Shown one piece after another: positions 135 through 9,260 of a stretch of 9,260 nucleotides of DNA. The stretch spans positions 1 through 9,260 of the forward strand of contig JALWZI010000005.1 in NCBI GenBank assembly GCA_027002755.1, in the 5' to 3' direction. The notes under the pieces are model-generated. The model did not search any database. It was not told where the DNA came from and saw nothing but the letters and a program-made list of their open reading frames with translations. How positions within the stretch are numbered: the first letter of the stretch is position 1; every line of letters begins with the position of its first letter. A program made the translations under genes and the position numbers. This DNA comes from Campylobacteraceae bacterium (GTDB taxonomy: Bacteria > Campylobacterota > Campylobacteria > Campylobacterales > Sulfurovaceae).

Positions 135-800
135 ATGCGAAGAATACTGCTGCTCGAAGACGACATCATTCTCCAGGAGATCATTGAAGAGTTTCTGATC
201 GAACGCGGCTACCGGGTCAATTGCTACTACGATGGGGAGTCGGCGCTGGATGCGGCGATGAAAGAGCATTACGACATGCTTCTGCTGGATGTGAATGTCC
301 CCGAGATCGACGGCTTCGAGCTTCTGGAGTACCTTCGGGAGATCCGCAACCGCACCCCGGCGATCTTCATCACCTCACTGGGGGACCTGAAGAATCTGCG
401 CAAAGGCTTCGATCTGGGGGCGGAGGATTATCTGAAAAAGCCCTTCGATCTGGAGGAACTCGCGATTCGGATCGAGCACCATCTGCGTCAGGGGGGAGGG
501 GATATCCGGGAGTGCGGGCCCTTTACCTTCCAGCCGGAACGGCATCTGCTGCTGGGGCCGGAGGGGGAGCGGATCCCGCTCAAGGCCAAAGAGTCCATGA
601 TCCTGGGCTATCTGCTCAGCCGCCGGGGGGAGGTGGTCTCCTTCGACGAACTGATCGCCAACCTCTGGGACGAAGAGCAGACTCCCACCTACGCCACCAT
701 CCGCACCTACATCAAAAACCTCCGCAAAATCCTGGGGCACGAAATGATCGAAAACGTCAAAGGGGAGGGGTATCGCATTGACGCGTCTGAGCGGATATGA
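135..800 (+). CDS. OmpR/PhoB-family response regulator
   Basis: This 221-residue cytoplasmic transcription regulator is the output half of a two-component system. The N-terminal receiver domain (about 1-118) shows the full phospho-site: acidic pair D9/D10, phospho-acceptor D52 in LLLDVNVPE, T80 and K102 in DYLKKPF. The C-terminal winged-helix domain (about 125-217) ends in the typical TYIKNLRKIL and ENVKGEGYRI stretches of the Trans_reg_C family. Length and domain order are normal for the family. The ATG at 135 follows a GGGGTGG ribosome binding site. The kinase gene starts inside its last codons, so the pair is co-transcribed and probably translationally coupled. Its position at the head of a copper/cytochrome locus suggests it controls the genes downstream, as CopR/CusR/CrdR-type regulators do. 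That target set is inferred from context; the sequence alone does not separate metal regulators from other OmpR-family members. Confidence 0.95.
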   Translation: MRRILLLEDDIILQEIIEEFLIERGYRVNCYYDGESALDAAMKEHYDMLLLDVNVPEIDGFELLEYLREIRNRTPAIFITSLGDLKNLRKGFDLGAEDYLKKPFDLEELAIRIEHHLRQGGGDIRECGPFTFQPERHLLLGPEGERIPLKAKESMILGYLLSRRGEVVSFDELIANLWDEEQTPTYATIRTYIKNLRKILGHEMIENVKGEGYRIDASERI

Positions 801-1992
801 GAAGCGTTCGCTTCTGCGTTTTCTGAGCCTCTATCTGGGGTCGGTCTTCGTGCTGCTGGCGATTATCGGCTGGCTATTTTTCGAGCACAACGCCGCGATG
901 ATGAAGAGCGCCATGAAGTTCGAGATGCTCTCAGAAGCCCATCGGATCGAGTCGCGTCTGACCCAGGCACTGATGCAGCAGCCAGTGATGGATCGGGAGG
1001 ATCTGACCGACGTGCTCAAAGGGATCCGAAGCCGCCGGTTCAAGGTGGGCTACTACGATGCCGATCATCGTCCCCTCTACAGCGAAATCAGCGGGATCCC
1101 CGGATTCGAGAAGCCCTTCTATGCCGGGAAACGGAGCTGCTACAGCATGATCAAATGCCCGTTGGGCAAAGAGGGCGTCGCCTACATCGCGCTGCAGGAG
1201 ACCAAGCTCAAGGGGATGATCCGGGCCCTGCGGTGGAAGATCATCGGCTACCTGGTCCTCTCCTTTCTCTTCATGTCGGTGGTGGGGTATTTCCTGGCAC
1301 GCCTGTTCATGCGCCCGATCCGGGAGAAGATCGAGGCACTCGACCGCTTCATCGAAGAGACCACCCACGAGCTCAATACCCCCGTCTCGGCGATTCTGAT
1401 GACGATCCGGCAGCTCAAAGGGGTCGAGGAGAAAAAGCTGCGGCGTCTGAAAGCCAGTGCTCAGCGTCTGAGTACCATGTATGACAGTCTCGCCTACGGT
1501 TTGGGCCGGGAAGTAGAGGAAGCACGAAGCGAAGCGCTGGACCTGGCCGAGATCTGTGCCGAGCGCTGTGACGCCATGGAGCCGCTGGCCCAGAGCAAGC
1601 GGATCGCCTTCGATATCCGGCTGGAGCCCTGCCGCATCTGGATGAACCGGGAGGAGCTGCGACGCCTCATCGACAACGTCCTCTCCAATGCCATCAAATA
1701 CAGTGATCCGGGTGGGGAGGTGACCGTCACCCTGGAGCGGTGCCGTCTGAGTGTGGCCGACCGGGGAATCGGCATGAGCCCTGACGAGCGCCGGGAGATC
1801 TTCAAACGCTATACCCGGGCCAACAAAGAGCGGGGCGGCTTCGGGATCGGATTGAGCATCGTCGCCCAGATCTGCCGGGATCACGGTATCGGCCTGGAGG
1901 TGGAGTCTGCCAAAGGGGAGGGGAGCCGCTTCGTCTTCGATTTCCGGCCGCTGAGGGAAAAAGGCGGTGCCGGCGCTCCTGCCAATCAATGA
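778..1992 (+). CDS. Membrane-bound sensor histidine kinase
   Basis: A 404-residue kinase partnering the regulator just upstream. The order is: TM helix (about 13-34), periplasmic sensor segment (about 36-150), second TM helix (about 153-177), phospho-acceptor H197 in THELNTP, and an ATPase domain with N box (N300 and N304 in DNVLSNAIKYSD), G1 box (D328, DRGIGM) and G2 box (GGFGIGLS, 353-360). Only about 20 residues separate the second TM helix from the H box, so there is no HAMP domain. The sensor segment carries a C-x5-C pair (C121, C127), which could bind metal or form a disulfide. The start is taken as TTG at 778 because GGAGGGG lies seven bases upstream and no in-frame ATG precedes the first TM helix; this gives a 23-base overlap with the regulator gene. 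The ATG at 797 is out of frame. The ligand is not known; copper is a contextual guess. Confidence 0.93.
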   Translation: MTRLSGYEKRSLLRFLSLYLGSVFVLLAIIGWLFFEHNAAMMKSAMKFEMLSEAHRIESRLTQALMQQPVMDREDLTDVLKGIRSRRFKVGYYDADHRPLYSEISGIPGFEKPFYAGKRSCYSMIKCPLGKEGVAYIALQETKLKGMIRALRWKIIGYLVLSFLFMSVVGYFLARLFMRPIREKIEALDRFIEETTHELNTPVSAILMTIRQLKGVEEKKLRRLKASAQRLSTMYDSLAYGLGREVEEARSEALDLAEICAERCDAMEPLAQSKRIAFDIRLEPCRIWMNREELRRLIDNVLSNAIKYSDPGGEVTVTLERCRLSVADRGIGMSPDERREIFKRYTRANKERGGFGIGLSIVAQICRDHGIGLEVESAKGEGSRFVFDFRPLREKGGAGAPANQ

Positions 1993-2012
1993 TTTTCTCT
2001 TTTGCTTCACGT

Positions 2013-2115
2013 GCAGTCAAATTTTTCAAAAATACCCTCAAATGACTACGACGAATGACCTCAAATAACCTTTAATGACTACTACACACGTATTGCATAC
2101 CGATCCGATTAGAAT
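2013..2115 (+). promoter_or_regulatory. Repeat-bearing control region upstream of the P460 gene
   Basis: This A+T-rich gap holds three related words on the plus strand: CCTCAAATGAC (2036-2046), CCTCAAATAAC (2059-2069) and CCTTTAATGAC (2069-2079). Their starts are 23 and 10 bases apart, close to two helical turns and one. AATGACTAC is repeated exactly at 2041-2049 and 2074-2082. Further on come CTACACAC (2082-2089) and a possible -10, TAGAAT (2110-2115), with no good -35 box, as expected of an activator-dependent promoter. Direct repeats about 10-11 bases apart are the usual target of OmpR-family dimers, so the regulator encoded at 135-800 is the first candidate to bind here. Binding is inferred. 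Confidence 0.5.
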
Positions 2116-2142
2116 GGGAAAGTCTATTCGAAAGGAGACGAA

Positions 2143-2889
2143 ATGAAAACAGCAAAATGGATACTCGTCGTATTGGTCGCGACAGGTTTGGGAACATTGG
2201 CAGCCGAGGAGGCCGATCCCTGCGGGATGGGTCAGAAAGGGGAAGCACACAAGGCAAAATCGGGGATGATGTCCCCGTCCGATACGATGAAAGCTCCGGA
2301 GAAAATGGGGCAAGGAATGATGAAACCTTCGGCTTCGATGGAAAAAGGGGCGATGCAAAAGGGGATGATGAAACCTCCCTTCGGCAATCCCGAGGATGTT
2401 GCCTATGCCAAAAAACTCTGGACCAAGCTGCATACGGCGGGCTATGACCGGGTCCACGGACACCTCTACGTGGGTGGTCCTCCGCACGGCAAGGTACGGG
2501 AAGTGAGCGAAGGAGTCATCGACGGTCATCTGGTCATCGTCAAGACCAATTACCGGGGCAAGGATGTGACGGTCGAGAAGGCCGCAGCCAATCCGAAAAA
2601 ATATCTGAAGTCGGTGACGGTGATGGCCAAACGCCCAGGCTATGACCCGGAGGATAAAGATTGGTTCTGGATCAAGTACGCTCCCGACGGTTCGGTCATG
2701 AGCAATCCCAAAGGGATGAAACTGGCAGGAAGAGTCGCCAAAGGCAAGCCCGTCGGCTGTATCTCCTGCCACCAGTCGGCTTCGGGCAACGACTTCGTCT
2801 TCTCCCACAACAAAACGGTCAATGCCGAGGTGACGTGGATCGGGGATGCGACGCTGAAGTCCAAATTTTTCGATCTGACAAACCCGTAG
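2143..2889 (+). CDS. Cytochrome P460-family haem protein with methionine-rich linker
   Basis: A 248-residue exported protein. Residues 1-20 form a Sec-type signal peptide, followed by a linker (about 25-80) with eleven methionines between 29 and 76, several as MM pairs, plus C27 and H36. The C-terminal domain (about 85-248) matches the cytochrome P460 family: VIVKTNY with K134, SVTVMAKRPGYDPEDKDWFW, KYAPDG, then the haem c site CISCH (C206, C209, H210) and NDFVFSH. Known P460 proteins carry a haem c cross-linked to a lysine and oxidise hydroxylamine or handle NO; related cytochromes c'-beta only bind NO. K134 is my candidate cross-link residue. The Met-rich linker is not part of the usual family domain and resembles periplasmic Cu(I)-binding stretches. 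The ATG at 2143 follows AAAGGAG at 2131-2137. The next cytochrome gene starts 10 bases after the stop. Substrate and any copper role are inferred. Confidence 0.85.
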   Translation: MKTAKWILVVLVATGLGTLAAEEADPCGMGQKGEAHKAKSGMMSPSDTMKAPEKMGQGMMKPSASMEKGAMQKGMMKPPFGNPEDVAYAKKLWTKLHTAGYDRVHGHLYVGGPPHGKVREVSEGVIDGHLVIVKTNYRGKDVTVEKAAANPKKYLKSVTVMAKRPGYDPEDKDWFWIKYAPDGSVMSNPKGMKLAGRVAKGKPVGCISCHQSASGNDFVFSHNKTVNAEVTWIGDATLKSKFFDLTNP

Positions 2890-2899
2890 GAGTACAACG

Positions 2900-3328
2900 A
2901 TGAAAATGTCGCAGATCGTTCTGACCGGAGTGTTGTTCTTCGGCACTACGGGTACCTGGGCCACCGGGATGGATGCCCGTCAGGAGGTCTCTCTTCCGGC
3001 GACGCTGAAAACCCACATGCTTCACAATATGCGCGATCATCTCCTGGCGCTGCACGAGATCCTGGATGCCCTGGGACGGGATGACAGCGACAAAGCGGCC
3101 CAAATCGCCGAATCGCGACTGGGGATGTCCTCGCTGGCTCTGCACGGAGCAAACAGGGCAGGCCCCTACATGCCTCCGGCGATGCGCAAAGCCGGGATGA
3201 GCCTCCATCACGCCGCCAGCCGCTTCGCCCTGGCGGTGCAGGAGGAGGATTCCCAAAAGACCTACAAGGCCCTCAGCCAAATCACCGCCTCCTGCATCAC
3301 CTGCCACGCGCAGTTCAGGCTGCGCTGA
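2900..3328 (+). CDS. Cytochrome c'-like (class II) periplasmic cytochrome
   Basis: A 142-residue protein with an N-terminal signal peptide (about 1-22) and a mostly helical mature part. It ends in the C-terminal haem site CITCHAQFRLR (C132, C135, H136), the CxxCHxxFR ending typical of class II cytochromes c such as c' and c556. Earlier helices contain the His/Met-rich stretch LKTHMLHNMRDHLLALHEI, where a sixth haem ligand might lie. Cytochromes c' bind NO and protect against nitrosative stress, while c556 proteins transfer electrons; sequence alone does not decide. ATG at 2900 has GGAG seven bases upstream; a second ATG two codons later is possible. It lies 10 bases after the P460 gene, forming a two-gene unit whose shared theme could be NO or hydroxylamine handling. 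Confidence 0.8.
   Translation: MKMSQIVLTGVLFFGTTGTWATGMDARQEVSLPATLKTHMLHNMRDHLLALHEILDALGRDDSDKAAQIAESRLGMSSLALHGANRAGPYMPPAMRKAGMSLHHAASRFALAVQEEDSQKTYKALSQITASCITCHAQFRLR
3308..3325. other. Short hairpin at a convergent gene junction
   Basis: GCGCAG (3308-3313), a six-base loop, then CTGCGC (3320-3325). It lies just before the cytochrome c' stop and 14 bases from the stop of the convergent DUF302 gene. There is no T-run on either side, so it is a weak terminator candidate at best. Confidence 0.25.
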
Positions 3329-3338
3329 CTCAGGCGTA

Positions 3339-3725
3339 TCACTCTTCCCAACTTTTCATCAAGCCTTTGAGCCGCTCGAAGAGGGTGGTGAAATGCTCCT
3401 GCAAGGTCGACTCTACCTCCACCGAGGCCAAAATGTCTTCGAACCCGATGGTGGCCAGGATTGTCCGGTCCCCTTCCCGGTAGATCGAAAGACGACAGGG
3501 AAGATAGACGGAGATCTCCGGGAGTTCGCTCAAGGCCTGCTGGGCGCCGGCGGGATTGCAGAGTTCGTAGACCGTGATCTCCCGTTCGATGGGAAATCCC
3601 TTGCTCTCCAGGATCTCTTTGAAATCGTAGGAGCCTAAAACGCCGAAGCCGAAGCTCTTCGCCCGTTCGGCAAGCTGGGACTCGATCTCGCTTTTCGTTT
3701 TCGTACTTGTGACTCGATAGATCAT
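3339..3725 (-). CDS. DUF302-domain protein
   Basis: A 128-residue protein without signal peptide or TM segment, so probably cytoplasmic. It matches the DUF302 pattern nearly end to end: an N-terminal SFGFGVLGSYDFKEIL region (about 24-40), ELCNPAGA with C56, and VYLPCRLSIY with C77. The two conserved cysteines are kept. The biochemical role of DUF302 is not established; the proteins often sit near redox and sulfur or metal genes. The start is placed at the ATG read from 3725 because AAGGAA lies just upstream; an earlier frame extension to 3812 would consume the divergent control region and lacks a good ribosome binding site. It is the only minus-strand gene: convergent with cytochrome c' (10 bases between stops) and divergent from the multicopper oxidase gene. 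Confidence 0.85.
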   Translation of the reverse strand: MIYRVTSTKTKSEIESQLAERAKSFGFGVLGSYDFKEILESKGFPIEREITVYELCNPAGAQQALSELPEISVYLPCRLSIYREGDRTILATIGFEDILASVEVESTLQEHFTTLFERLKGLMKSWEE

Positions 3726-3752
3726 CTTTATTCCTTTTTTTGAAAGTTTATC

Positions 3753-3822
3753 GCAATGGTGTGTAGCGTTTCTGCAGGAAGTATTGCACTGCACGCAGAG
3801 TGCACACCGCACACCCTACAAT
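3753..3822. promoter_or_regulatory. Divergent control region between DUF302 and the oxidase operon
   Basis: Three elements can be seen. On the minus strand, CTACACACCATTGC (3766 down to 3753) nearly repeats CTACACACGTATTGC before the P460 gene (2082-2096). TGCACT (3785-3790) and AGTGCA (3799-3804) form a 6-base-arm dyad with an 8-base spacer. GCACACC is repeated in tandem at 3802-3808 and 3809-3815. TACAAT at 3817-3822 is a good -10 for the oxidase gene, 30 bases from its start codon. No recognisable -35 box stands 16-20 bases upstream, so a MerR/CueR-type long-spacer promoter is not supported. An activator using the dyad or the CTACACAC word is more plausible. Confidence 0.5.
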
Positions 3823-3852
3823 GAAAAAGAATCTAACCAAAGGATCAAGAGA

Positions 3853-5334
3853 ATGAAAACCGATCGGCGAAACTTCCTCCGAATCGCACTGGGGATCTCC
3901 GGGGTGACAGCCGCCGCCCTTTTGGCAAAGGGAATGATGGGAGGCCGGATGGGAATGCAGGGAGGCGGCCAGGCAGTGAAGGAGCAGGAGAACCGATTTT
4001 TCAATCCTCTGAGAATCCCTCCCGAAATCAAAGGGGAGTTGAAAAACGGGATCCGCCATTACGACCTGACCCTCCAGAGCGGAATCAGCGAATTTTTTCC
4101 CGGCATCAAGACCCCGACCTGGGGGATCAACGGCCATTATCTCGGGCCGACGATCCGTCTGAAACGTGGAGAGGAAGTGGCACTGCGCTGGTTGAATCGA
4201 TTGCCCGAGAGTACCACGATGCACGGCCACGGGATGCATCTGCCCGCCGTGATGGACGGCAACATCCATCAGGTCATCGAACCGGGCCGAAGCTGGGTCG
4301 CCCGTTACCGGGTCGATCAAAAGGCCTGCACCAACTGGTATCACCCCCATATCATGGACCGGACGGCTCAGCACGTGATGTTGGGGCTCGGCGGGATGAT
4401 CTTCATCGACGACGAGGAGAGTGCGGCGCTCCCCCTCCCCAAACGCTATGGCATCGACGACATCCCTGTGGTGGTGCAGGATCGGCTCTTTACCAAAGAG
4501 GGATATTTCGCCTATCCGCAGAACATGATGACGGTGATGCACGGATTTTCGGGTGACACGCTGCTGATCAACGGAACGATCGCCCCCTATTTCGAAGCGG
4601 AGGAGGGCTTGCTGCGGCTCCGGCTGCTGAACGCCTCCAATGCCCGGATCTATCGGTTTGCCCTGGGAGACGGCCGGCCGATGCATCTGATCGCGGGGGA
4701 CAATTCGTTCCTCGAACGGCCGGAGAAGGTGGATGAGGTCCTCCTCTCCCCGGCGGAGCGGGCCGAGGTGGTCCTGGATCTGAAGGGGATGTCCGGCCGG
4801 GATCTGTTCCTGGTGGACCGTGAAAGCGGAGCGGGGGTTCTGCGGATCCGAGTCGGCAAAGCAGCGACGGCACGCTCCGAGATCCCCAAGCGTCTGACCC
4901 GTCTGGAGAGTTTGGAAAAAGTTCGGCCTACCGGCAGCCGAAGCTTCGACCTGGAGGCCCGGGGACCCGGCCGGCTGGTGATCAACGGCAAGGCGATGGA
5001 TCCGCAGCGCATCGACGAGAAAGTGCCGCTGGGGGCCTATGAGATCTGGACCGTCCGCAATGTGGGAATGGGGATGGGGCGCATGATGGGGATGAATCAC
5101 AACTTCCACATGCACGCCACCCATTTCAGGATTCTGGAGCGTAACGGCAGCGTTTCCGGGGTACGGCCCTGGGAACGGGGCTACAAAGATACGGTCTTCC
5201 TGGCCCCGGGGGATGAGGCGAAGCTGCTGGTACGCCATACCGACTATGCCGACGCCAAGGTGCCCTACATGTACCACTGCCATATCCTGGAACATGAGGA
5301 TGCGGGGATGATGGGACAGTTCGTCGTCGTTTGA
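3853..5334 (+). CDS. Tat-exported multicopper oxidase, CueO/CopA-like
   Basis: A 493-residue periplasmic oxidase, probably oxidising Cu(I) to Cu(II) with O2. It begins with a twin-arginine signal (DRRNFLRIA, then a hydrophobic stretch to about 26). All four copper-binding segments are present: HGHG (H124, H126), HPH (H164, H166), HNFHMH (H416, H419, H421) and YHCHILEHEDAGMM (H475, C476, H477, H481, M486). By family analogy the type 1 site is H416, C476, H481, M486, and the trinuclear cluster uses the remaining histidines. The first motif has Gly where HWHG is usual. Methionines cluster after the signal (28-35) and before the third motif (406-414), suiting a cuprous oxidase. The ATG at 3853 follows AAAGGA and places RR at the correct position; an earlier TTG at 3784 would put 23 extra residues ahead of the Tat signal. 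It heads a block with the SHOCT and ATPase genes. The family call is firm; the Cu(I) substrate is inferred from context. Confidence 0.93.
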   Translation: MKTDRRNFLRIALGISGVTAAALLAKGMMGGRMGMQGGGQAVKEQENRFFNPLRIPPEIKGELKNGIRHYDLTLQSGISEFFPGIKTPTWGINGHYLGPTIRLKRGEEVALRWLNRLPESTTMHGHGMHLPAVMDGNIHQVIEPGRSWVARYRVDQKACTNWYHPHIMDRTAQHVMLGLGGMIFIDDEESAALPLPKRYGIDDIPVVVQDRLFTKEGYFAYPQNMMTVMHGFSGDTLLINGTIAPYFEAEEGLLRLRLLNASNARIYRFALGDGRPMHLIAGDNSFLERPEKVDEVLLSPAERAEVVLDLKGMSGRDLFLVDRESGAGVLRIRVGKAATARSEIPKRLTRLESLEKVRPTGSRSFDLEARGPGRLVINGKAMDPQRIDEKVPLGAYEIWTVRNVGMGMGRMMGMNHNFHMHATHFRILERNGSVSGVRPWERGYKDTVFLAPGDEAKLLVRHTDYADAKVPYMYHCHILEHEDAGMMGQFVVV

Positions 5335-5362
5335 CGTGAATCGAGAGGGAAAGGAGGAACCC

Positions 5363-5584
5363 ATGATGCACTATGGACCGATCTTTGGCATGGGATGGGG
5401 ATGGATCGTCCCGCTGCTGGTTGTGGCGGGGTTGATCTATCTCTTCACGAGAGGAGCTTCCCGGCGATCTGCCGACGGGGCACGCCGGATCCTGGACGAG
5501 CGTTTCGTCCGGGGAGAGATCGACGAAGCGGAGTATCGAAAACGGATCAGGATCCTGAAAGGAGACAACGATGCATCCCCATAA
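5363..5584 (+). CDS. Small SHOCT-domain membrane protein
   Basis: A 73-residue protein with one N-terminal TM helix (about 10-31, MGWGWIVPLLVVAGLIYLF) and a C-terminal SHOCT domain (about 42-66, ARRILDERFVRGEIDEAEY). SHOCT (short C-terminal) domains are oligomerisation or interaction modules of uncertain function, and proteins of this type are often found in copper-resistance clusters. The start is the ATG at 5363, five bases after AAGGAGG; the next codon is also ATG and equally possible. A GTG at 5336 is less likely because the strong ribosome binding site lies downstream of it. The gene begins 28 bases after the oxidase stop and overlaps the ATPase start by 14 bases, implying co-translation. 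A membrane helper of the pump or oxidase is a guess. Confidence 0.82.
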   Translation: MMHYGPIFGMGWGWIVPLLVVAGLIYLFTRGASRRSADGARRILDERFVRGEIDEAEYRKRIRILKGDNDASP

Positions 5585-7592
5585 AATACCCGACCATACC
5601 CATGCTGCCGAAGGGGGTCACGACCATGGCGGCGGACACGAAGGAAACGAAGGGCATCAGCACCACGCCGAAGAGATGAAACGGCGTTTTTACGTCTCCC
5701 TGGCGGTGACAGTCCCGATTCTTCTGCTCTCACCGATGATTCAGGGATGGCTCGGATTCCGTCTGGACGTTCCCTATCGGGAAGCGATCATTTTCATCCT
5801 CTCCACGTTTATCTATTTCTACGGCGGATGGCCCTTCCTGACCGGAATGGTTACAGAGATCCGCAAGCGCAAACCCGGGATGATGACGCTGATTACTCTG
5901 GCGATCAGTGTCGCCTATTTCTATTCGGCCGTCACGCTGGTCGTCCCCGGCGGCAAAGAGTTCTTCTGGGAGTTGGCCACGCTGATCGACATCATGCTCA
6001 TCGGCCACTACATCGAGGCCAAAAGTATTCTAGGGGCCTCGGACGCCCTGGGGGAGCTGGTGAGGATGATCCCGAAGACCGCCATGAAGATCCGGGACGA
6101 CGGCGAGACCGAAGCGGTCCCCATCGACACCCTCCGTCCGGGGGATCGCATTCTGATCCGCCCGGGGGAGACCGTCCCGGCGGATGGGGTGGTCGAAGAG
6201 GGGGAGAGCCTGAGCAACGAAGCCTTTCTCACCGGAGAGTCGAAACCGGTCTCCAAAAAACCCGGCAGCGAAGTCTATATGGGGAGCAGCAATATCGACG
6301 GTGCCCTGAAAGTGAGGATCACCAAGAGCGGTGCCGAGAGCTACCTCTCCCAGGTGATCGAGCTGGTGCGCGAAGCCCAGTCGAGCCGCTCCCGTAGTCA
6401 GGATATGGCCAACCGGGCCGCCGGATGGCTTTTTTATGCCGCCGGGGGTATCGGAGCGGTGACCTTCGCGGTCTGGTCGGCTCTCGTCTCCCCGATGGAC
6501 GCGGTGTTACGCACCGTGACCGTGCTGATCATCGCCTGCCCCCACGCTCTGGGGCTGGCGGTTCCGCTGGTCGTGGCGATCTCTACCTCTCTGGCGGCAA
6601 AACGGGGGATCCTGATCCGAAACCGCCAGGCCTTCGAAAGCCTGAGAAAGGTCGATGCGATCTGCTTCGACAAGACCGGAACATTGAGCGAAGGAAAACT
6701 GGAAGTCTCCCGTTTCGAAACGGTCGGAGAGGCCGGGGAGCTGCTGGCCCTCGCCGCCGCCGTGGAACGGAACTCCGAACACATCATCGCCCAGGCGATC
6801 GTCAACTACGCCCAGGCCCAGGAGGTTCGAATATCGGAGGCCGACAAATTCACCGCCTTCCCGGGGATCGGGGCCAAAGCCCTGGTAGAGGAGCACGAGG
6901 TGATGGTGGGCGGGCCGCGCCTCCTGGAGCGGGAATCGCTGGAACTTCCGGAGGCTCTGGAGCCCTTCCGCCGGGAAGAGTCGACCAAAGTCTGGGTGGC
7001 CGTCGACGGGCAGCTCGTGGGAGTCTTTCTGCTGGCCGATCGGATCCGTCCGAGTGCCGTCGGTGCGATCGCCGCCATCAAAAAACTGGGGATCGAGACC
7101 TGGATGCTCACCGGAGACAACGAAGCGGTCGCCCGTGAAGTGGCAAAGACCTGCGGGATCGACCACTATCGTGCCGGACTGCTGCCCGACGAAAAGGTCA
7201 AGCGGATCCGGAGGCTCCGGGAATCGGGCAAAACCGTCGCCATGGTGGGAGACGGCATCAACGACGCCCCTTCGCTCCTGACGGCCGATATCGGTATCGC
7301 CATCGGGGCGGGGACCGACATCGCCATCGAAAGTGCCGACATCATCCTGACCCAGAGCGATCCCTCCAGCGTCGTCCATGCGATCCGGCTCTCCCGGGCC
7401 ACGACCCGCAAAATGCTCCAGAACCTCTGGTGGGCCAGCGGATACAACATCGTAGCACTCCCCCTGGCCGCCGGGGTGCTCGCCCCCTGGGGAATCCTCA
7501 TCGATCCGGCGGTGGGGGCGATCCTGATGTCCGCCAGCACAGTGATCGTCGCCCTCAACGCCCAGCTGCTCAAACGCTATGGGTCGGCTTGA
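5571..7592 (+). CDS. copB: Copper-translocating P-type ATPase, CopB type (P1B-3)
   Basis: A 673-residue inner-membrane pump exporting copper from the cytoplasm with ATP. The N-terminus has ten histidines in the first 32 residues instead of CxxC HMA domains. Then come two TM pairs (about 41-60, 70-92, 104-125, 131-148), the actuator motif TGES (221-224), a TM pair with the ion-site motif CPH (C323-H325), the phosphorylation site DKTGT (D367), MLTGDN (512-517) and GDGINDAP (560-567). The last two TM segments carry N618-x6-Y625-N626-x4-P631 and MSAST (653-657), the signature of the P1B-3 subgroup that moves Cu(II) and/or Cu(I). The nucleotide-domain motif reads SEHIIA, not the textbook SEHP: H404 is kept and the proline is isoleucine. 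Length and domain order are complete. The start at 5571 follows AAAGGAGA and overlaps the SHOCT gene. Silver export is an alternative known in the family. Confidence 0.95.
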   Translation: MHPHKIPDHTHAAEGGHDHGGGHEGNEGHQHHAEEMKRRFYVSLAVTVPILLLSPMIQGWLGFRLDVPYREAIIFILSTFIYFYGGWPFLTGMVTEIRKRKPGMMTLITLAISVAYFYSAVTLVVPGGKEFFWELATLIDIMLIGHYIEAKSILGASDALGELVRMIPKTAMKIRDDGETEAVPIDTLRPGDRILIRPGETVPADGVVEEGESLSNEAFLTGESKPVSKKPGSEVYMGSSNIDGALKVRITKSGAESYLSQVIELVREAQSSRSRSQDMANRAAGWLFYAAGGIGAVTFAVWSALVSPMDAVLRTVTVLIIACPHALGLAVPLVVAISTSLAAKRGILIRNRQAFESLRKVDAICFDKTGTLSEGKLEVSRFETVGEAGELLALAAAVERNSEHIIAQAIVNYAQAQEVRISEADKFTAFPGIGAKALVEEHEVMVGGPRLLERESLELPEALEPFRREESTKVWVAVDGQLVGVFLLADRIRPSAVGAIAAIKKLGIETWMLTGDNEAVAREVAKTCGIDHYRAGLLPDEKVKRIRRLRESGKTVAMVGDGINDAPSLLTADIGIAIGAGTDIAIESADIILTQSDPSSVVHAIRLSRATTRKMLQNLWWASGYNIVALPLAAGVLAPWGILIDPAVGAILMSASTVIVALNAQLLKRYGSA

Positions 7593-7615
7593 GAGGAGCC
7601 GCCTGTACATATCGG

Positions 7616-7645
7616 TTGCACACTGCTCCTGTAGAGTGTAAAAAA
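7616..7645 (+). promoter_or_regulatory. Candidate promoter/operator of the tandem cytochrome unit
   Basis: The 70-base gap after the ATPase gene contains TTGCAC (7616-7621), 17 bases, then TAAAAA (7639-7644), a possible weak promoter. ACACT (7620-7624) and AGTGT (7635-7639) form a dyad with a 10-base spacer. The word TAGAGTG just before the TA-rich hexamer also occurs before the regulator gene (103-109). On the minus strand, TTACACTC (7641-7634) differs by one base from TTACACAC upstream of the regulator. Read-through from the ATPase gene is equally possible because no terminator is evident between them. Confidence 0.3.
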
Positions 7646-7662
7646 ACGAGAGGAGTTAGACG

Positions 7663-8070
7663 ATGCGACGGAAACAGTCGTTCTTTCTTTTGGTCTCCCT
7701 GCCGCTTCTTTTGAATGCCGCGGACTGGGATGATTCCCGGCAGATCGAGAGAGGCAAAGGCCTCTATGCCGCCAACTGCACCTCTTGTCACGGAGTGCGG
7801 GCCGAGGGGGGCCTTCGATTCGAGGGACGGCGCTCCCCACCCGCGCTCAACGGCAAAGGCCATGTGACCCATCACTCTCCGGAGACGCTCCTGGCCCATA
7901 TTCGAAAAGGGGGCACCAAAAGAGGGGAGTGGATGCCTGCTTTTGAAATGCGTCTCGACAGCAAAGAACAAAAAGCGGTTCTGGCCTATCTCTATAGCCT
8001 TTGGCCCCGGAAGACATGGAGCCGTTATGAAAAGAAATTCCCTCTCAAATCAATGAAGGAGTCACGATGA
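7663..8070 (+). CDS. Small monohaem cytochrome c, first of a tandem pair
   Basis: A 135-residue exported class I cytochrome. A signal peptide (about 1-19, MRRKQSFFLLVSLPLLLNA) is followed by CTSCH (C39, C42, H43), a haem c site. WMPAF (M91) is the probable methionine axial ligand, and a final helix contains AVLAYLYSLWP. A basic tail of about 30 residues (RYEKKF...) follows the cytochrome fold. AGGAG lies about eight bases before the ATG at 7663. It shares with the next gene the blocks WDD, GLY/ELF..NC..CHGV.A, P.LNG..H..HHSP, WMP.FE, YL.SLWP and RY.K.F, so the two arose by duplication. The stop overlaps the next start as ATGA. The role is presumably periplasmic electron transfer; the partner is unknown, though the oxidase upstream is an obvious candidate. 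Confidence 0.88.
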   Translation: MRRKQSFFLLVSLPLLLNAADWDDSRQIERGKGLYAANCTSCHGVRAEGGLRFEGRRSPPALNGKGHVTHHSPETLLAHIRKGGTKRGEWMPAFEMRLDSKEQKAVLAYLYSLWPRKTWSRYEKKFPLKSMKESR

Positions 8071-8507
8071 AACAAAGTATCTACAGTAATCTTTTGGCGG
8101 GGTTGCTGCTTTTCGGAGGAGCCGCGTCTTTCGCCACTGCCGGTTGGGACGATCCGGCGTCTATCGCGAAGGGAGAGGAACTTTTCGCCAAAAACTGTGC
8201 CGTCTGTCATGGGGTCAAAGCTGCGGGAAAACCGGGGGTGGATTGGAAAAAGAAGCTATCTGATGGCAGTTTCCCTCCGCCGCCGCTCAACGGCACCGCC
8301 CATGCCTGGCATCACTCCCCCAAGCTGCTCGACCGGATCATCGCCCAGGGGGCCAAAACCTACGGGGACGCCTACAAAGGATGGATGCCGGGATTTGAAA
8401 AGAAACTCGATGCCTCTGATCGTCTGGCGATCCTCAAATACCTTCACTCTCTCTGGCCCGAGGAGATCCGGAAACGCTATGACAAACATTTCAAACTGGA
8501 AGAGTGA
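8067..8507 (+). CDS. Small monohaem cytochrome c, second of a tandem pair
   Basis: A 146-residue exported cytochrome, paralogous to the preceding one. The signal peptide (about 1-25) ends near ATAGWDD. The haem site is CAVCH (C44, C47, H48), with M107 in GWMPGFEKKL as the probable axial ligand. It differs from its paralogue mainly by an insertion between the haem site and the LNG block (about 54-70, with VDWKKKLSDGSFPPPP) and a slightly longer loop before WMP (TYGDAYKG). The C-terminal SLWPEEIRKRYDKHF matches the paralogue's tail and lies outside the minimal cytochrome fold. The ATG at 8067 overlaps the upstream stop by four bases and follows AAGGAG, so the two are translationally coupled. 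It may form a complex or relay with its paralogue; that is inference. Confidence 0.88.
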   Translation: MKQSIYSNLLAGLLLFGGAASFATAGWDDPASIAKGEELFAKNCAVCHGVKAAGKPGVDWKKKLSDGSFPPPPLNGTAHAWHHSPKLLDRIIAQGAKTYGDAYKGWMPGFEKKLDASDRLAILKYLHSLWPEEIRKRYDKHFKLEE

Positions 8508-8524
8508 GGGGCGATCGATCCAGA

Positions 8525-8530
8525 TATAAT
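8525..8530 (+). promoter_or_regulatory. Candidate -10 box for the HMA chaperone gene
   Basis: A perfect TATAAT, 19 bases before the start codon, in a 42-base gap. No good -35 is seen 16-18 bases upstream, where the sequence is still in the preceding gene. It would give the chaperone its own promoter in addition to read-through. Confidence 0.45.
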
Positions 8531-8549
8531 TTCTCACAAAGGAGTCGAA

Positions 8550-8837
8550 ATGAAAACACAGACCTTCGAAGTCCTCAACGTCAAATGCGGCGGCTGCGCC
8601 AACACGCTGCGCACCAAACTGGAGCCGGAGTTCGGTCCGGTGGAGGTGGATCTGGAGTCGATGCCCCGACGGATCACCCTGCAGATCGACGAAGACCGGA
8701 TCGCAATGCTCCGGGAACGTCTCCGGAAACTGGGATACCCCATGGCCGACGAAAGCCTGGGGATCCTGGATGCCGGAGCCGCCAAGGCCAAAAGCTTCGT
8801 CAGCTGTGCCATCGGGAAGAAGGGGGAGGAGAAATAG
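8550..8837 (+). CDS. HMA-domain metallochaperone, CopZ-like
   Basis: A 95-residue cytoplasmic protein. Residues 1-67 form a heavy-metal-associated (ferredoxin-like) domain with the metal site NVKCGGC (C13, C16) and the loop GYPM near 62-65. Such proteins bind Cu(I) through two cysteines and hand it to a P1B ATPase. The site lacks the GMT(C/H) lead-in of classical CopZ (here NVKC), so other soft metals cannot be excluded. After the fold there is an unusual tail of about 28 residues containing a third cysteine (C86 in KSFVSCAIGKK), which could add a ligand. AAAGGAG lies six bases before the ATG at 8550. The ATPase in this cluster has a His-rich N-terminus and no HMA domain, so a free-standing chaperone fits. 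No terminator is clear downstream; GGAGAAA (8828-8834) and TTTCTCC (8848-8854) could pair weakly. Confidence 0.88.
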   Translation: MKTQTFEVLNVKCGGCANTLRTKLEPEFGPVEVDLESMPRRITLQIDEDRIAMLRERLRKLGYPMADESLGILDAGAAKAKSFVSCAIGKKGEEK

Positions 8838-8938: not shown

Positions 8939-9260
8939 ATGAATGGGTTGAAATGGATCTTTCTTCTGATCATGACAGGCAGCTTCATCGCAGCGCAGGA
9001 GGCTGTAGTCGTCGCGATTCAGAGTGAGAACCGGATCATTGTGCAAAACAACGGGAAACAGTATCCGATACGTTTGGCGGGTATCGCCTCCTTCGCTACG
9101 GCGGGTGTTCGACAAGCCGAGGTTCCCTGGCAGACCAGAGAAGCATTTTCCGCCAAAGTCAGAGAGATACTGGAACACAGGATAGCTGTAGGCAGTGTCA
9201 TCCACTATGCCGTGATCGATGATGGAGATCGAGGGGCTGAGTATGTTTGGCTCTATGACG
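8939..9260 (+). CDS. Exported protein with SNase-like fold, 3' end cut by window
   Basis: An open frame of 107 codons reaches the window end without a stop. ATG at 8939 follows GGAGG by eight bases. Residues 1-20 look like a signal peptide (hydrophobic core KWIFLLIMTGSFIAA). The visible mature part resembles the start of a staphylococcal-nuclease (TNase) domain: a first strand VVVAIQSENRIIV, then QYPIRLAGIASFA where nucleases have RLxGIDxPE, then TREAFSAKVREIL and VWLYD. The DGDT motif and the Asp and Glu of the ID-PE motif are absent, so if the alignment is right the protein is probably not a nuclease. Its gap and possible own promoter suggest it may not belong to the copper operon. The assignment is tentative because more than half of the domain may lie outside the window. 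Confidence 0.6.
   Translation, partial: MNGLKWIFLLIMTGSFIAAQEAVVVAIQSENRIIVQNNGKQYPIRLAGIASFATAGVRQAEVPWQTREAFSAKVREILEHRIAVGSVIHYAVIDDGDRGAEYVWLYD

Follow-up and report, generated by a model that had tools for sequence, protein, structure and literature searches.

Copper islands that include a cytochrome are already known as a kind. In Myxococcus xanthus, the CorSR-regulated curA operon is copper-induced and holds a two-component system, a multicopper oxidase (MCO), a copper P-type ATPase, and a PF13442 cytochrome, MXAN_3414, whose deletion alters the copper response (PMC3707914). Copper induces CueO and a CopA-like ATPase in Nitratiruptor, where the gene of a cytochrome c, adjacent to that of a Cu/Zn efflux transporter, goes up under cadmium and copper (PMC10092412). 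Here we describe an eleven-gene locus encoding four CxxCH proteins in a Campylobacteraceae bacterium (assembly GCA_027002755.1). It lies on contig JALWZI010000005.1 (C5; 9260 bp), which was analyzed in its entirety and which we refer to as the window; the contig belongs to a metagenome-assembled genome (MAG) of 75.6% completeness, and the locus may extend past its ends. The original prediction for this DNA had listed a two-component system, P460-like and c′-like proteins, a DUF302 protein, an MCO, a SHOCT protein, a CopB-type ATPase, two paralogous cytochromes c, and an HMA protein. All eleven genes were confirmed at their positions by Pfam and NCBIfam searches and by reading of the open reading frames (ORFs), as was its count of four c-type heme proteins.

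The window shares with the curA operon a two-component system, an MCO, a copper ATPase, and a PF13442 cytochrome (PMC3707914). This monoheme cytochrome is syntenic with copper genes, and we liken it to MXAN_3414 by domain and synteny, not by sequence comparison. The curA operon differs in having one cytochrome in place of the window's tandem pair, a sigma54-dependent regulator, and an ATPase named CopA, and its nine-gene table lists no P460-like, c′-like, DUF302, or SHOCT genes (PMC3707914). The CopA–CueO system of Enterobacteria likewise pairs a periplasmic CueO-like oxidase with a P1B pump; the window differs from it in its cytochromes, its two-component system, and its CPH-type pump, and no CueR-like gene was found among the window genes. 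The remark in the original prediction that no described system with this exact content was known is partly answered by the curA operon, and it is the addition of the P460-like and c′-like genes that may be new. Among the literature matches listed, we found no description of these two joined to a copper set, and the three papers pairing "cytochrome P460" with "copper resistance" are, by title, on ammonia or methane oxidizers.

We read the locus as a predicted copper-detoxification island whose small c-type cytochromes would serve as an electron outlet for Cu(I) oxidation, a reading from sequence to which we give about an even chance. The evidence centers on the tandem cytochromes, cyt1 (7663–8070, plus strand; PF13442, 51.6 bits) and cyt2 (8067–8507, plus strand; PF00034, 51.8 bits). 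Their genes overlap by 4 bp and their products are 43% identical, in line with the paralogy proposed for them. Both carry an HxxHH motif (HVTHH in cyt1, HAWHH in cyt2), which lies between CxxCH and MPxF/Y in all 25 aligned members of the subfamily (nine from Campylobacterota genomes and 16 from plasmid records). Among relative loci the motif was present in 14 of 16 strong matches (two of the 14 being the duplicate pair L005/L060), and the two matches lacking it are pieces of a broken cyt1 in G238. It was seen in none of 49 other monoheme ORFs of these loci (mechanically called, some duplicated, the P460-like and c′-like ones among them). Some homologues carry further potential metal ligands: the cyt1 homologue of G096 (L148 8369–8905) has a Met-rich N-terminal tail, and that of G329 (L138 11401–11865) has a His/Met-rich C-terminal tail.

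We surveyed 175 genomes of the family, 90 of them at least 90% complete with low contamination. At E = 1e-12, a profile of the tandem cytochromes (A3) gave 15 matches, the window's two included, spread over 10 of these genomes, and an MCO lay within 3 kb of all 15. At the genome level, where "MCO" denotes any homologue at E = 1e-20, the HxxHH cytochrome was associated with the MCO (Fisher p = 6e-6, kinship ignored). Because their genes stand within 3 kb of an MCO in all ten genomes, the HxxHH heme proteins likely carry electrons from copper oxidation. For the tandem pair, the expected co-occurrence with copper genes in relatives therefore holds.

Plasmids gave a similar picture. Of 275 plasmid records that matched, 24 were selected to give a spread, and 13 of these were examined (12 from Alphaproteobacteria, one from Arcobacter). 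A copper-type neighbor (MCO, DUF411, CopC/D, P-type ATPase, or CueR) was present in 12 of the 13, with an MCO within 6–8 kb in nine; the three others had DUF411 alone, DUF411 with a P-type ATPase, and DUF411 with CopC and CopD. Three further top-ranked records all had an MCO, so that these MCO–cytochrome c–DUF411–P-type ATPase clusters place the same HxxHH subfamily beside an MCO in 12 of 16 records. The cytochrome and MCO genes share 4 bp in four of the records. The Arcobacter cluster also has a two-component system and a SHOCT gene, like the window. The plasmid clusters differ from the window in having a single annotated cytochrome c in 11 of 16 records and DUF411, CopC/D, CueR, or Dsb-type partners, and no P460 or c′ gene is annotated in the 16 stretches, for which the PLSDB gene tables are incomplete.

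In the copper core of the window, the MCO (3853–5334, plus strand; PF07732, PF07731, and PF00394) has all four copper motifs (HGHG, HPH, HNFHMH, and HCHILEHEDAGMM), covering the type 1, 2, and 3 copper sites, as well as three Cu-oxidase domains and a twin-arginine translocation (Tat)-type start (RRNFLR). It scored 404 bits against the CueO equivalog model, under the cut-off of 525, and is a predicted CueO-like oxidase. The CopB-type (P1B-3-like) copper ATPase (5571–7592, plus strand; TIGR01511, 612.6 bits, cut-off 397) bears the marks of a copper-type P1B pump, namely, the CPH motif in IACPHALG, which we take to place it in the P1B-3 class, and a His-rich N-terminus. The small HMA protein (8550–8837, plus strand), which resembles a copper chaperone and contains CGGC, scored 18.8 bits against PF00403 (cut-off 24.8); its CxxC and a C-terminal SFVSCA are kept in all seven aligned orthologues, the window's included. 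Between the MCO and ATPase lies a small membrane SHOCT protein (5363–5584, plus strand; PF09851, 24.4 bits, cut-off 27). The HMA, SHOCT, and c′-like proteins thus all fall just under their Pfam cut-offs, and their homologues accompany island genes in relatives. To call this copper-export set "complete", as had been done, is too strong, since the copper core is present but the window has no outer-membrane or RND exporter.

A hand tally of the neighbors of 25 MCO loci in 24 genomes (the window's excluded; mostly the best-scoring of 56 MCO-bearing genomes, some on short contigs) showed which partners recur. Two-component genes stood beside the MCO in 15 loci, an HxxHH cytochrome in nine, DUF302 in eight, SHOCT in seven, an HMA gene in six, a P1B ATPase in six (three of them only 36%–37% identical), a regulator alone in three, and c′ and P460 genes in two each. 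The MCO, cytochrome, two-component system, and HMA gene are the recurring core of the copper island, and the P460-like and c′-like genes are a genus-specific layer.

In the mechanism we propose, the two-component system would sense copper and switch the island on. The HMA protein would pass cytosolic copper to the ATPase, which would pump it to the periplasm, where the MCO, and likewise the His/Met-rich sites of the cytochromes, would oxidize Cu(I) to Cu(II), the tandem HxxHH pair handing electrons to the respiratory chain. CueO-type Cu(I) oxidation needs O2, yet many bacteria exposed to toxic copper inhabit settings with very little O2. With such an outlet, oxidation could continue when the MCO is short of O2, and the HxxHH cytochromes, which occur next to MCOs both in this family of Campylobacterota and on plasmids of Alphaproteobacteria, are candidate alternative acceptors of the electrons. 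The P460-like and c′-like proteins would act as copper-binding heme proteins of the same periplasmic chain. More tentatively, the heme proteins with built-in copper sites (the HxxHH pair, the Met-tailed P460, and the His/Met-lined c′) might together form a Cu(I):cytochrome c oxidoreductase chain that delivers electrons into respiration even without O2 at the MCO; we consider this stronger version possible, if doubtful. The idea that all four cytochromes form a single unit was rejected, as the tandem cytochromes are distributed differently from P460 and c′.

The same cytochromes could instead be copper-tolerant replacement or protective respiratory carriers, which would not oxidize copper themselves; copper harms periplasmic c-type cytochromes and their maturation. 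The MPxF/Y motif, found in every one of the 25 aligned HxxHH cytochromes, is as expected of ordinary electron carriers, and MXAN_3414 has been proposed to aid energy generation under copper (PMC3707914). A replacement role leaves the HxxHH motif, the His/Met tails, and the link to the MCO unexplained, and we regard it as a conceivable but rather doubtful account.

The relatives, of which those with names are "Campylobacteraceae bacterium" MAGs, bear on whether the P460-like and c′-like genes belong to the island. Locus L005 holds the same eleven genes at 46%–86% identity gene by gene (P460 75%, MCO 70%, CopB 69%, and c′ 50%) in a rearranged order: P460, DUF302 (minus strand), SHOCT, CopB, regulator, kinase, c′, MCO, cyt1, cyt2, HMA. 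We consider the eleven-gene set a unit because this diverged locus keeps all of it in a different order. L004 has the gene order of the window, with cyt1 broken into two frames. In G329 (L006) the set is split over two contigs, regulator–kinase–c′–P460–HMA and CopB–MCO–cyt–cyt. Within the genus, P460 and c′ occur in the same five of 13 genomes; four of these five also have the MCO and HxxHH cytochromes, compared with none of the other eight. G333 (L003) retains one end of the set, with regulator, kinase, P460, c′, and HMA genes, and in it the regulator and c′ frames are broken; searches of this 99%-complete genome (L003/L058) found no MCO or HxxHH cytochrome. Its remaining genes may be decaying after loss of the copper core, or the breaks may be assembly error (coverage 2.7).

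Farther afield, the P460-like subfamily (profile A1) was detected in four of 397 phylum genomes, in 11 of 175 of the family (two of these being fragments at contig ends), and in eight of 44 of another family; a single-sequence search of the phylum had given 2/298, and the profile was used thereafter. One relative, named Nitratifractor sp., is 75% identical over 64%. An MCO was present in 10 of the 11 P460-bearing family genomes, and outside the genus in 6/6 compared with 46/156 of the others (p = 9e-4, kinship ignored). HxxHH cytochromes were present in seven of the 11, and outside the genus in 3/6 versus 3/156 (p = 6e-4, kinship ignored). The c′ gene is also rare (15/175 family genomes at E = 1e-5; 8/377 at E = 1e-10), and beyond the genus its presence is not linked to that of the MCO (2/5, with 1.6 expected). 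Co-occurrence with copper genes therefore stands for P460 at the genome level in the family but as adjacency only within the genus, and for c′ only within the genus. Copper-type neighbors occurred at just two of 14 non-genus c′ loci, in G129 and in G513, where contig C2 of the latter has, 1.1 kb from c′, a 70-residue HMA-like ORF that its record leaves unannotated (L195 7449–7658); we take these as hints.

These distributions bear on a further alternative, that the P460-like and c′-like genes are passengers, unrelated heme genes placed here by local rearrangement and kept by drift. In other Campylobacterota both genes are found apart from copper genes, which speaks for this view, as do the broken regulator and c′ frames of G333. 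A passenger origin fits poorly with three other observations: both genes stay with the set through the rearrangement in L005, both occur in the same five genomes of the genus, and P460 tracks MCO-bearing genomes outside it in all six cases. We consider it unlikely.

The properties of the two proteins speak to their function in the island. The P460-like protein (2143–2889, plus strand) is a monoheme cytochrome with a PF16694 domain (37 bits, cut-off 27) and a C-terminal CxxCH. Like the cytochrome P460/c′-beta superfamily, it has an invariant Lys at the cross-link position; it differs in being divergent, in its Thr for Glu/Asp at the distal position, in a Met-rich extension, and in its association with copper genes in the genus (PMC11928373). 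K134 is invariant in 30 aligned members and falls on the consensus cross-link Lys in the profile alignment; a global MAFFT alignment, owing to where it sets its gaps, lines up a Lys there in just 14 of 30. The invariant K134 sets the subfamily apart from c′-beta proteins, which lack the cross-link lysine. The distal-carboxylate position (Glu96/Asp102) is T159 in the window and Thr in all 30 members. Of the family's canonical P460s, 22 were aligned and 21 have Glu there; two bridging P460s, L034 and L035, also have Thr. In P460s, hydroxylamine oxidation has been tied to the distal carboxylate (PMC11928373), and given that requirement the P460-like protein, with its distal Thr, is predicted not to oxidize hydroxylamine. 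Ahead of the domain, the window protein has 11 Met in the 55 residues after residue 22, and three close relatives have 11, 11, and 9, compared with 2–4 at non-copper loci with a clear start; the P460 of G329 has a short Met/His tail. Sequence and profile searches against solved structures gave no significant match (7ead, E = 0.023 and 0.17), and the AlphaFold2 model (mean predicted local distance difference test [pLDDT] score 66.8; Foldseek 7ead, E = 0.25, behind the unrelated 1p32, E = 0.21) was too weak to use. The canonical Glu-bearing P460s, frequent in the family, are possible true hydroxylamine or nitric oxide (NO) enzymes. At the canonical P460 loci L009–L035, a response-regulator homologue was noted in 14 of 27.

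The c′-like protein (2900–3328, plus strand) is a predicted four-helix monoheme cytochrome that scored 23.9 bits against PF01322, short of the 26.5-bit cut-off; seven of 33 aligned homologues carry a precomputed PF01322 assignment. No significant match to solved structures was found by sequence or profile searches. Its AlphaFold2 model (pLDDT 89.2) is a helical bundle with CxxCH at the C-terminus, and the best Foldseek hit was a cytochrome c′ (3vrc, E = 0.03, probability 1.00, TM-score 0.52; none reached E = 0.001), a weak to moderate resemblance that is suggestive. In its family (A2, 34 sequences), His39, His47, His82, and His103 and Met44, Met76, Met91, and Met95 are invariant or nearly so besides CxxCH, and five of 33 homologues have His/Met-rich N-termini (one named Betaproteobacteria). 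We consider the P460-like and c′-like proteins most likely to be copper-binding heme proteins rather than hydroxylamine or NO enzymes, and a fold known for hydroxylamine chemistry may here have been turned to copper.

The original prediction had offered either an electron outlet or a coupling of copper detoxification to nitrosative stress, in which P460 and c′ would handle hydroxylamine or NO under the one two-component system. Characterized relatives of both folds bind NO (PMC11928373), and the cross-link-type Lys is invariant in the P460-like subfamily. The gene order is also compatible, with P460 and c′ directly downstream of the two-component genes in the window and L004, the two-component genes, c′, and P460 consecutive in L006, and c′ after the two-component genes in L005, where P460 lies 2.8 kb upstream. 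Set against this are the Thr in 30/30 at the distal-carboxylate position, the mostly unrelated neighbors of c′ homologues elsewhere, and the lack of any N-oxide enzyme gene besides P460 and c′ among the window genes (Pfam and NCBIfam; the rest of the genome was not searched). On the distal Thr and this lack we rejected hydroxylamine/NO coupling as the leading reading and regard it as improbable. Nothing was found in support of joint copper/NO control, and the outlet half survives for the tandem cytochromes, through the MCO linkage, the plasmid neighbors, and HxxHH. A "cytochrome P460" annotation at this locus should not be taken as a sign of nitrification.

Returning to the copper island with its electron outlet, its presumed control lies with an OmpR-type response regulator (135–800, plus strand; PF00072, 92 bits; PF00486, 65 bits), which scored 124.5 bits against the heavy-metal regulator subfamily model TIGR01387, under the cut-off of 279.2, and a membrane sensor histidine kinase (778–1992, plus strand; HATPase_c, 87 bits) whose TTG start overlaps the regulator. 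Two-component genes stand beside the MCO in relatives too. Upstream of P460 we found a candidate regulator-binding array (2041–2079, plus strand), with AATGAC at 2041, 2054, and 2074 and AATAAC at 2064. The corresponding region has four exact hexamers in L003 and three in L004, at an exact 10-bp period matched by none of 100 mononucleotide shuffles. The window's array is degraded, with its last three units spaced 10 bp, and is not beyond chance by the shuffle test; L005 has no such array. A common promoter element for the whole island was rejected after a look by eye gave only this array upstream of P460. A sigma-70 scan yielded three sites against 3.0 expected, and Rfam gave nothing at gathering scores. 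An inverted repeat, TGTGTAA-CTGT-TTACACA, at 71–88 upstream of the response regulator is a possible operator and is imperfect in L004.

Several observations weigh against the copper-outlet reading. HxxHH matches were absent from 46 of the 56 MCO-bearing family genomes, so the MCO does not seem to require an HxxHH cytochrome, and one plasmid relative, H52, had no copper neighbor. Absences in family genomes are soft, as many are incomplete and at most about 22 HxxHH candidates were scored per genome. In the five stretches scanned, the AATGAC array occurred only upstream of P460 and not of the MCO or ATPase, so that common control of the island is no more than a possibility. No MCO, ATPase, DUF302, SHOCT, or HMA homologue was found at 14 non-genus P460 loci in the stretches examined (several on contigs of 4–7 kb), and 12 of 14 non-genus c′ loci likewise lacked all five. 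Some non-genus P460 loci do have two-component homologues, the best in G499 (regulator 46%, kinase 33%). Family f10, with few genomes, showed no contrast (MCO in 4/5 genomes with P460 and 2/3 without). The Met-rich tail is weakened as a clean marker of copper loci: it stands out only in the three close relatives, and that of L005 has seven Met from an over-long start and about four from the likely start, no more than at some non-copper loci. Finally, regulation, copper binding, and electron transfer are steps that we infer from gene content, linkage, motifs, and alignments.

The one remaining gene of the set, encoding a DUF302 protein (3339–3725 from its ATG; PF03625, 52 bits), lies on the minus strand, opposite to the other ten. 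Among relatives, G238, the nearest, has cyt1 split into two frames with cyt2 intact (L059 2327–2748), and the space between CopB and the MCO in G329 (L138 8362–9791) holds a regulator that by eye is ArsR-like and a rhodanese gene with two PF00581 stretches. A second, different c′ cassette, in which c′ is followed by thioredoxin and pentapeptide-repeat genes, was seen in G129 (the second gene by eye) and on the Sulfuricurvum plasmid pSULKU02 (L192 8708–10067; L076 9908–11452). At the end of the window, a secreted ORF without a Pfam match begins at 8939 and runs off the contig (8939–9260); by eye, it is thermonuclease-like.

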